A DNA stretch of 40,725 bases from Erysipelotrichaceae bacterium. GTDB lineage: Bacteria; Bacillota_I; Bacilli_A; Erysipelotrichales; Erysipelotrichaceae. The position numbers and the translations under genes are program-made. The DNA lies in contig JAEEHC010000025.1 in NCBI GenBank assembly GCA_016280635.1, positions 1 to 40,725 of the forward strand, given 5' to 3'. Under the pieces are notes generated by a model. That model saw only the letters and a program-made list of their open reading frames with translations. It was not told the origin of the DNA and searched no databases. This document shows, piece after piece, positions 5,241 to 7,273 of this stretch. Each line of letters begins with the position of its first letter. The stretch's first letter is position 1.

Positions 5241-6695
5241 CTATTTCTGTTTATAGACCGATAAGAAGTCGGCAATTTTTTCCATGCATTCGCTCAGTAT
5301 TTCGATCCGGGGCAGATAGACAATGCGGAAGTGGTCGGGATCGGGCCAGTTGAAGCCCTTGCCGTGGACGATCAGCACCTTCTTTTCCTTCAGCAGATCC
5401 AGAGCGAACTGCTCGTCATCATGTATATTGAATCGCTTGATGTCGAGTTTGGGGAAGATGTAGAAGGCGGCCTGCGGTTTGACAGCGCTTAAGCCGGGAA
5501 TCCTTTCAATGGCATCGTAGATGAAGTTGCGCTGCTGGTAGAGCCGGCCGGTGGGAATAATGTAGTTATTGACACTTTGGTGGCCGCCCAGAGCGGTCTG
5601 AATGATCGACTGGCCGGGCACGTTGGAGCACAGCCGCATGTTGGAGAGCATGTTGATGCCCTGAATGTAGTCGCTGGCCAGTTTCTTATTGCCGCTTAGG
5701 ATCATCCAGCCGACGCGGTAGCCGGCGATCATGTGGGACTTGGAAAGTCCGGAGAAGGTCACGCAGAACAGATCATCAGCCAGTGAGGCGATTGAGGTGT
5801 GCTGCAGGTCATCCATGACCAGCCGGTCATAGATCTCATCGGAGAAGATGATCAGCTTATGTTCTCTGGCCAGATCGACGATCTGCTGGAGGATCTCTAA
5901 CGGATAGAGTACCCCGGTAGGATTATTGGGGTTGATCACGACGATGGCCTTGGTGCGGGAGTTGATCTTGGCCCGAATGTCATCGATGTCGGGATACCAG
6001 TTGTTTTCCTCGTTACAGATGTAGTGCACGGCCTTGCCGCCGGCCAGAGTGGCGCAGGCGGTCCAAAGGGGGTAATCCGGTGAAGGAATCAGAATCTCAT
6101 CGCCGTTATCCAGAAGAGCGCTCATCGACAGGTTGATCAGCTCGCTGACGCCGTTACCGGTATAGATGTCCTCCATGGTCACATTAGGCAGTTTCTTGAG
6201 CTGGGCGTACTGCATGATGGCCTTACGGGCGGAGAAGAGCCCCTTGGAATCGGAATAGCCCTCGCATTCGGTCAGTTGGCTGGACATGTCGTAGATGATC
6301 TCATCGGGAGTCCGGAAGCCGAAGGGAGCGGGGTTACCGATGTTGAGTTTGAGAATGTGGGTGCCGGCCAGTTCCATCTGCCGGGCCAGTTCCACGACCG
6401 GTCCGCGGACGTCATAGAGGACATTGTCGAGCTTGCTGGACTTGCGGAAGTAGGAGGAGGGTTCCTCCGGCTTGCGGTCCTCGTCGTCGAAGTAGTCAGG
6501 ACTTACTTCCAGGGCAAAGGTCAGCCAGTTAAGGACGTCCCGGCGCGGCCTGACCTTGCCGGAAAGATACTGGCTGATGTGGCTCTTGCCTAAAGGAATG
6601 CCTTCCTTTTGGGCCAGATTGACCAGGTCGATCTGCTTGTAGCCCATGTTGTTCATTGCTGTTTTTAACTTTTCCGCGAAGTTTTCCGGAGTCAT
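5241..6695 (-). CDS. XRE-type HTH fused to class I aminotransferase (AlaT/AspC-like)
   Basis: 484-aa fusion. Residues about 5-70 form a lambda-repressor/XRE-like helix-turn-helix (QIDLVNLAQKEGIP then SHISQYLSGKVRPRRD). Residues about 85-484 are a complete fold-type I PLP aminotransferase of the alanine/aspartate group: NPNNPTG (255-261), SDEIYD (285-290), PLP lysine Lys319 in SGLSKSHMIAGYRVGW and a C-terminal FRIVYLP with the substrate-carboxylate arginine. All catalytic residues expected are present, so it could be enzyme, regulator or both. The start at 6695 is chosen because AGAGGTG precedes it at good distance; an in-frame GTG at 6704 lies inside that site. Single-gene transcript from the promoter at 6767-6795, whose -35 is one of several TTGAAC repeats. 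Confidence 0.88.
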   Translation of the reverse strand: MTPENFAEKLKTAMNNMGYKQIDLVNLAQKEGIPLGKSHISQYLSGKVRPRRDVLNWLTFALEVSPDYFDDEDRKPEEPSSYFRKSSKLDNVLYDVRGPVVELARQMELAGTHILKLNIGNPAPFGFRTPDEIIYDMSSQLTECEGYSDSKGLFSARKAIMQYAQLKKLPNVTMEDIYTGNGVSELINLSMSALLDNGDEILIPSPDYPLWTACATLAGGKAVHYICNEENNWYPDIDDIRAKINSRTKAIVVINPNNPTGVLYPLEILQQIVDLAREHKLIIFSDEIYDRLVMDDLQHTSIASLADDLFCVTFSGLSKSHMIAGYRVGWMILSGNKKLASDYIQGINMLSNMRLCSNVPGQSIIQTALGGHQSVNNYIIPTGRLYQQRNFIYDAIERIPGLSAVKPQAAFYIFPKLDIKRFNIHDDEQFALDLLKEKKVLIVHGKGFNWPDPDHFRIVYLPRIEILSECMEKIADFLSVYKQK

Positions 6696-6748
6696 CTTGA
6701 ACACCTCTTTCCCTGAAACATAACTTTTCGCACCTTAAAGCGGTTAAT

Positions 6749-6852
6749 TTGAACTTTTCAGCCTTGATTTTAACACTTTGCGGCGAGTTGTTCAACGAAA
6801 AGTTCAAAAATAATTCAAAATGAAATTGAACTAACAAAACAAAAAATTGAAC
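6749..6852. promoter_or_regulatory. Array of TTGAAC/GTTCAA operator-like sites
   Basis: Five exact TTGAAC or GTTCAA hexamers lie in 104 bp: 6749-6754, 6790-6795, 6802-6807, 6826-6831 and 6847-6852. Two are extended to the mirror pair TTGAACTTTT (6749-6758) and AAAAGTTCAA (6798-6807). GTTCAA at 6802 and TTGAAC at 6826 form the arms of a 30-bp imperfect palindrome. One hexamer is also the -35 box of the aminotransferase promoter. Most simply this is the binding region of that protein's own HTH domain. Confidence 0.6.
6767..6795 (-). promoter_or_regulatory. Promoter of the HTH-aminotransferase gene
   Basis: On the minus strand: TTGAAC (6790-6795), 17-bp spacer, TAAAAT (6767-6772). The -35 coincides with one of the repeated hexamers, so a protein bound there would compete with RNA polymerase. 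The leader is about 65 nt. Confidence 0.65.
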
Positions 6853-6857
6853 TTCTG

Positions 6858-6877
6858 CCGGTGTGACGCCGGTTTTT
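6858..6877 (+). terminator. Possible short terminator or attenuator hairpin
   Basis: CCGGTG and CGCCGG form a 6-bp stem (one G-T pair) around TGA, followed by TTTTT. It lies upstream of the gene at 6950 in the same direction, but no clear promoter upstream of it was found, so its role is uncertain. Confidence 0.35.
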
Positions 6878-6949: not shown

Positions 6950-7273
6950 ATGGAATTCAGAGAATTGGATGAAAGAGTCAGATCAGTATTTGAACTGTAT
7001 AACCGGACAGCTTTCATCAGCTTTACCCTTAGGGAAAGCGATGAGAACTTCCGGTTTTATCAGTGCGTAAACTATGTGATGTCCTGCCTTTGTGAAGAGT
7101 ATCAGTTCATCCTGGAAAGAGAGTATGTGGACCGGGCTCCGCATAACTGGTGGATGCTCTACTATTCCCGGACGACCTATTACCGGCTCAAGAAACGGGC
7201 CATGACGGAATTCGTCCGTCGCTTGAAATGGCAGGGTATAAATGATAAGATTAACTTAACAGATAACATATGA
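6950..7273 (+). CDS. Small ArpU/MG284-like (sigma region 4-like) protein
   Basis: 107-aa protein. The C-terminal half ([16 protein letters not shown], then [21 protein letters not shown] at about 72-92) has the spacing of a sigma-70 region 4 or ArpU-type helix-turn-helix: a helix ending in an acidic residue, a short aromatic turn, then S/T-x-x-x-YRLKKRA as recognition helix. This resembles phage ArpU/RinA-type regulators and the MG284/MPN403 family of mollicutes. Function is not known from the sequence. An AGAGGGG site precedes the ATG. It is 16 nt upstream of ptsI and probably shares its mRNA. Confidence 0.65.

Follow-up and report, generated by a model that had tools for sequence, protein, structure and literature searches.

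An alanine aminotransferase fused to a phage CI-type DNA-binding domain, a probable autorepressor with an array of half-sites at its own promoter

Introduction

What does a DNA-binding domain do on an aminotransferase, and does it act on the repeated hexamers in front of its own gene? This question is raised by one locus in a 40,725-nucleotide stretch of Erysipelotrichaceae DNA (the window), whose source genome is a MAG of 1.87 Mb with 91% completeness. The initial annotation set the gene beside the MocR/PdxR regulators, assigned its DNA-binding part to the lambda/XRE type instead of the GntR type, and proposed a self-controlled enzyme that reads its substrate or PLP level. In the open-access literature we found no description of such an XRE-AlaA fusion. 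Here, we argue that the protein is, with good probability, a working AlaA-type enzyme carrying a phage CI-type DNA-binding head, which would repress its own gene through its own array of half-sites.

Results and Discussion

Domain composition of the fusion protein

The fusion gene encodes 484 aa and occupies positions 5241-6695 on the minus strand. The best start codon is the ATG at 6695, preceded by the Shine-Dalgarno sequence AGAGG at 6704-6708, and a GTG at 6704 in the same frame is also possible. The protein consists of an HTH domain (residues 1-74; 6474-6695, minus strand), a short low-confidence linker (about residues 72-83; 6447-6482, minus strand) and an AlaA-type fold I aminotransferase domain (residues 84-484; 5244-6446, minus strand). 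Its AlphaFold model likewise displays two separate domains and an uncertain linker (mean pLDDT 73). This linker measures about 12 aa in the window protein, and in some homologues it reaches about 160 aa.

The best PDB match of the aminotransferase part is E. coli AlaA (PDB ID: 4cvq; E=6e-170), with 59% identity over 404 aligned residues. The Aminotran_1_2 match (E=3e-56) falls to the AlaA family, and the NCBIfam alanine aminotransferase profile is the top match, but under its strict cut-off. The statement that the catalytic residues are kept proved correct: NPNNPTG (255-261) and SDEIYD (285-290) are present, and Lys319 corresponds in the alignment to Lys240, the catalytic lysine of E. coli AlaA. 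The equivalents of AlaA Gly41, Tyr68, Ser105, Tyr129, Asn179, Tyr210, Lys240, Arg248 and Arg378, whose roles are described in the structure paper (PMC4094517), are all identical. These kept active-site residues predict that the window protein is apparently a working alanine (glutamate-pyruvate) aminotransferase. The fusion shares with E. coli AlaA not only the catalytic residues but also the N-terminal plug motif (YDVRGP, residues 94-99 in the window protein), whereas E. coli AlaA has no DNA-binding domain and the TTGAAC array described below is missing from unfused AlaA genes.

The combination of an HTH with a fold type I PLP domain is also found in MocR, GabR and PdxR, with which the fusion may share the sensing of PLP or an amino acid. 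This similar general architecture raises the alternative that the aminotransferase part just senses a ligand (PLP or an amino acid) and contributes little or nothing to metabolism, while another enzyme makes alanine; GabR and EnuR of the MocR group are described as being mainly regulators. We consider this improbable, since the active site of AlaA is preserved in all its residues at the given overall identity and the aminotransferase core of the fusions is conserved as strongly as in unfused AlaA. Furthermore, the closest paralogue in the same genome is only 23% identical, and a genome usually contains no second array, so that little else would be left to regulate. The MocR-type proteins carry a GntR-type winged helix, whereas the fusion combines an HTH of the XRE type with a member of the AlaA family that has a complete active site. 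Judged from these sequences, the fusion is not a MocR/PdxR member and its origin is independent. A catalytically working enzyme is the preferred reading.

Relationship of the HTH domain to phage CI repressors

In the window protein, Pfam detects the HTH only as HTH_31 with an E-value of 0.015, under the cut-off, so that a plain aminotransferase label would be expected from family annotation alone. In contrast, a profile built from 20 members of the fusion family matches TP901-1 CI in the PDB at E=4e-16, the sole other match being a short stretch of a repetitive DNA-binding protein. The AlphaFold model of the HTH is a lambda-repressor-like four-helix bundle (mean pLDDT 84) with the recognition region GKSHISQYLSGK, and Foldseek places TP901-1 CI at ranks 1-4. 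PHROG transcription-regulation families, i.e., phage repressors, are matched by the HTH in 20/20 members, while the search for a GntR-type winged HTH in the window protein gave no GntR match. The assignment to the lambda/XRE type is thereby confirmed.

The half-sites of TP901-1 and phi13 CI fit AGTTCAYR (PMC8516035; see also PMC7250872), and phi13 CI binds poorly to AGTTGAYR mutants (PMC8516035). In all six related phage repressors examined, GTTCA-N4..9-TGAAC dyads were located in the switch regions. The consensus of 147 sites in the fused representatives is AAATTGAACT, with the same core as the phage CI half-site. By profile and fold, the CI proteins of TP901-1 and its relatives (phi13, O1205, Lj928) are thus the nearest to the fusion HTH and share its half-site core GTTCA/TGAAC, and the fusion HTH would be expected to bind DNA as well. 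The two systems differ in that phage CI has its own oligomerisation domain and uses paired inverted half-sites, whereas the fusion possesses the aminotransferase instead and its half-sites are mostly unpaired and phased.

The putative operator array in the window

The five exact TTGAAC/GTTCAA sites counted previously within 104 bp (6749-6852) are indeed present, and a sixth was found from 6697 onwards. One of the hexamers had been proposed to be the -35 element of the gene's own promoter, which also holds: TTGAAC (6795-6790, minus strand) is separated by 17 bp from the -10 element TAAAAT (6772-6767, minus strand). Another putative half-site (6802-6807, minus strand) precedes the -35 site by 12 bp, roughly one helical turn, and two more at 6826-6831 and 6847-6852 (both plus strand) are 21 bp or two turns apart. 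Downstream of the -10 element, one putative half-site falls into the predicted 5' UTR (6749-6754, plus strand), and the sixth is situated between the Shine-Dalgarno sequence and the start codon (6697-6702, plus strand). When 6696-6860 was dinucleotide-shuffled 20,000 times, the mean was 0.34 sites and no shuffle reached 5, compared with the 6 observed. When three-site TTGAAC patterns in all orientations were searched across the 1.87-Mb genome, every match fell inside the upstream intergenic region of the fusion gene; there is no other such cluster anywhere in this genome.

The presence of sites on both sides of the promoter would also be compatible with activation, in which the fusion switches on its own promoter and the upstream sites recruit polymerase; GabR is reported to switch on transcription of GABA-related genes. 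Nevertheless, with one site coinciding with the -35 element and others within the 5' UTR and next to the start codon, the layout is that of repression, and the phage relatives of the HTH are repressors. Activation is therefore judged rather unlikely, and repression of the own promoter would be the expected outcome.

The ArpU-like/ptsI unit on the other side of the array had been suggested as a second target. This found no support, as the gene neighbours of the fusion are not conserved, which also indicates that the array moves together with the fusion gene. The small ORF upstream of ptsI (6950-7273) gave a match to the MG284/MPN403 family and a weak one to the phage ArpU family; it is kept beside ptsI in a sister genome.

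Co-occurrence of the sites with the fusion

To compare fused and unfused relatives, representatives were thinned to under 93% identity (37 fused, 45 unfused) and 300 bp upstream were scored. The fused representatives contain a mean of 3.97 sites per 300 bp versus 0.24 in shuffles, while the unfused relatives contain 0.20 versus 0.18. Ranked against all 2080 hexamer pairs, TTGAAC comes first upstream of the fused representatives. The array is present in nearly all of the 99 fused loci analysed, although such simple counts are inflated by the relatedness of the members. Two additional bifidobacterial members have five sites each, and the fused loci L024 and L025 contain 4-5 copies each of ATGAAC in place of TTGAAC. 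L003, a close relative from another Erysipelotrichaceae MAG, has fewer sites than the window, at different positions. A -35 role for a site in all members was rejected: it applies, with a good -10, to only 10/37 fused representatives. No TTGAAC was detected in the roughly 180 bp of upstream contig sequence of L269, an XRE-AlaA locus whose record is labelled bacteriophage, and this locus may be a true exception to the pairing of fusion and array.

Thus, conservation of the hexamers upstream of orthologues was confirmed, as the sites accompany the fusion in different phyla and are missing from unfused relatives. The array could still be read by a separate regulator, the fused HTH having another job or none. 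This is very unlikely: the sites go with the HTH and not with the AlaA core, both are gone together in L030, the relatives of the HTH are known to bind AGTTCA, and the array stays while the neighbours vary. That the array is a chance or compositional artefact, as the AT-rich upstream regions of Firmicutes members might suggest, has a negligible probability and is refuted by the comparative counts, because the observed number was never reached in shuffles, unfused controls are at chance level, and TTGAAC also occurs upstream in bifidobacteria and Coriobacteriia, many of them with an upstream GC content near 50% or above. The proposal of a self-controlled DNA-binding enzyme is strongly supported by the co-occurrence of sites and fusion and by the kinship of the HTH to repressors of AGTTCA half-sites. 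Since the fusion gene carries an array of the target sites of its own HTH, control of this gene by the enzyme it encodes is very probable, as far as sequence comparison can tell.

Distribution and history of the fusion

The first search for related loci yielded 68 loci, part of them with the HTH and part with AlaA only. The fusion occurs in Clostridia, Erysipelotrichaceae, Bifidobacterium and Coriobacteriia. A close homologue was found in 77/151 Bifidobacteriaceae genomes and in 54/150 genomes of the class of G065 (Collinsella), most of the open frames being longer than 500 aa and thus fusion-sized in both cases, as well as in 44/391 genomes of the class of G067.

In a phylogeny of the AlaA core, the fused proteins group in a single well-supported clade, indicating one origin of the fusion, with the window gene and L003 placed among the Clostridia members. 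Within the genus of the window, only 2/7 genomes contain the fusion, and horizontal transfer of the gene is therefore likely. L030, nested in the fusion clade, has neither HTH nor sites, a case of joint loss. No phylogenetic contrast of fusion versus sites was significant, because the independent gains or losses are few.

HTH loss was also considered for L161 (G674) and rejected: in this Collinsella-type fusion gene, a stretch of Ns in the linker region hides the HTH from automated reading. Of the 'phage' records with 62-68% identical HTH, the two examined, L269 (MT839381.1) and L270 (MT838394.1), proved to be bacterial XRE-AlaA loci. These 'Bacteriophage sp.' records are probably bacterial contigs; in L270, the HTH-bearing open frame stops ahead of the aminotransferase motifs.

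Arrangement of the half-sites

A compact inverted pair of sites is present in only 4/38 fused representatives. Spacings between adjacent direct repeats recur with a period of 10.5-10.75 bp (Rayleigh p of about 1e-5, uncorrected for kinship), and the half-sites of the fusions are mostly unpaired and in phase with the helix. With its two tethered HTHs, a dimeric enzyme could use half-sites in any orientation.

In Bifidobacterium criceti, B. choerinum, B. italicum and their relatives, 4-11 extra sites lie inside the linker-coding DNA; in the three named species most of them share one frame, and many are translated as IEH/VEH repeats. In each of the nine genes concerned (L029, L027, L067, L103-L107 and L120), 0/2000 draws from a null model of the gene's codon usage reached the observed count, while shuffling codons within the linker gave p from 0 to 0.05; the intragenic sites are thus in excess over both synonymous-codon nulls. 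With slightly more confidence than doubt, we regard the family as a widespread, fully catalytic and self-repressing PLP aminotransferase, derived from one ancestral fusion to a phage head, in which two HTHs linked flexibly to a dimeric enzyme allowed palindromes to be given up for phased half-site arrays, with the array of one Bifidobacterium clade extended into the gene, where its copies are translated as VEH/IEH linker repeats.

Proposed mechanism and relation to known systems

In AlaA, which is dimeric, the N-terminal arm forms a plug that covers the active site; this arm is ordered with substrate mimics and disordered in some related structures (PMC4094517). The HTH of the fusion is joined to exactly this arm. 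If the fusion enzyme is dimeric, as expected, its two HTHs on flexible linkers would dock on half-sites (A/T)TGAAC(T) that are about 10.5 bp or multiples thereof apart, over and around the own promoter. The occupied sites would block the -35 element and the start region, resulting in autorepression. Because the HTH hangs on a plug that becomes ordered upon substrate binding, DNA binding is expected to depend on the state of the active site, which could set the affinity through the position or freedom of the HTHs. The protein may read the level of its substrate or of PLP. The sign of this coupling may be such that abundant alanine or an idle enzyme shuts the gene.

Such a protein would resemble an autoregulating trigger enzyme such as PutA of enteric bacteria, a metabolic enzyme that represses its own operon. 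The DNA-binding domain of PutA is a ribbon-helix-helix, and both this domain and the enzyme differ from those of the fusion. Besides MocR, the fusion offers a second, independent route to an HTH-PLP-enzyme protein; as the enzyme is apparently still working, catalysis and gene control become testable in one protein. It would also mean that common gut bacteria (bifidobacteria, Collinsella, Lachnospiraceae) have reused a phage repressor head in their core nitrogen metabolism, and it offers a testable operator code of half-site arrays, helical phasing and intragenic operators.

An amino-acid permease as second target

In the B. saguini group, 3-6 sites occur at an amino-acid permease gene whose top match is CycA, under the cut-off of that model. 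In B. saguini itself, six TTGAAC/GTTCAA sites were located upstream of the CycA-like permease (L190, G063:C17, 3926-4056). At least three sites at the permease are present in 15/48 bifidobacterial genomes with XRE-AlaA, whereas the 21 genomes without the fusion never have more than one. The permease of some bifidobacteria is thus the sole second target found, predicted from its sites, and its array was gained in a Bifidobacterium clade other than that with the linker arrays.

A general regulon was rejected, as most three-site matches outside the alaA locus are no commoner than the reversed-pattern control. The match at G003:C33 was discarded since it lies inside a coding region, and those at C3, C4 and C6 of B. 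saguini belong to a dispersed repeat of 21 bp and not to a TTGAAC array. This repeat, as far as seen unrelated to the array, is found at several sites of the B. saguini genome (e.g., L191 2362-2443 and L192 1683-1772) and consists of 21-bp units like TTGAACACTGACTGTAGGTTTT.
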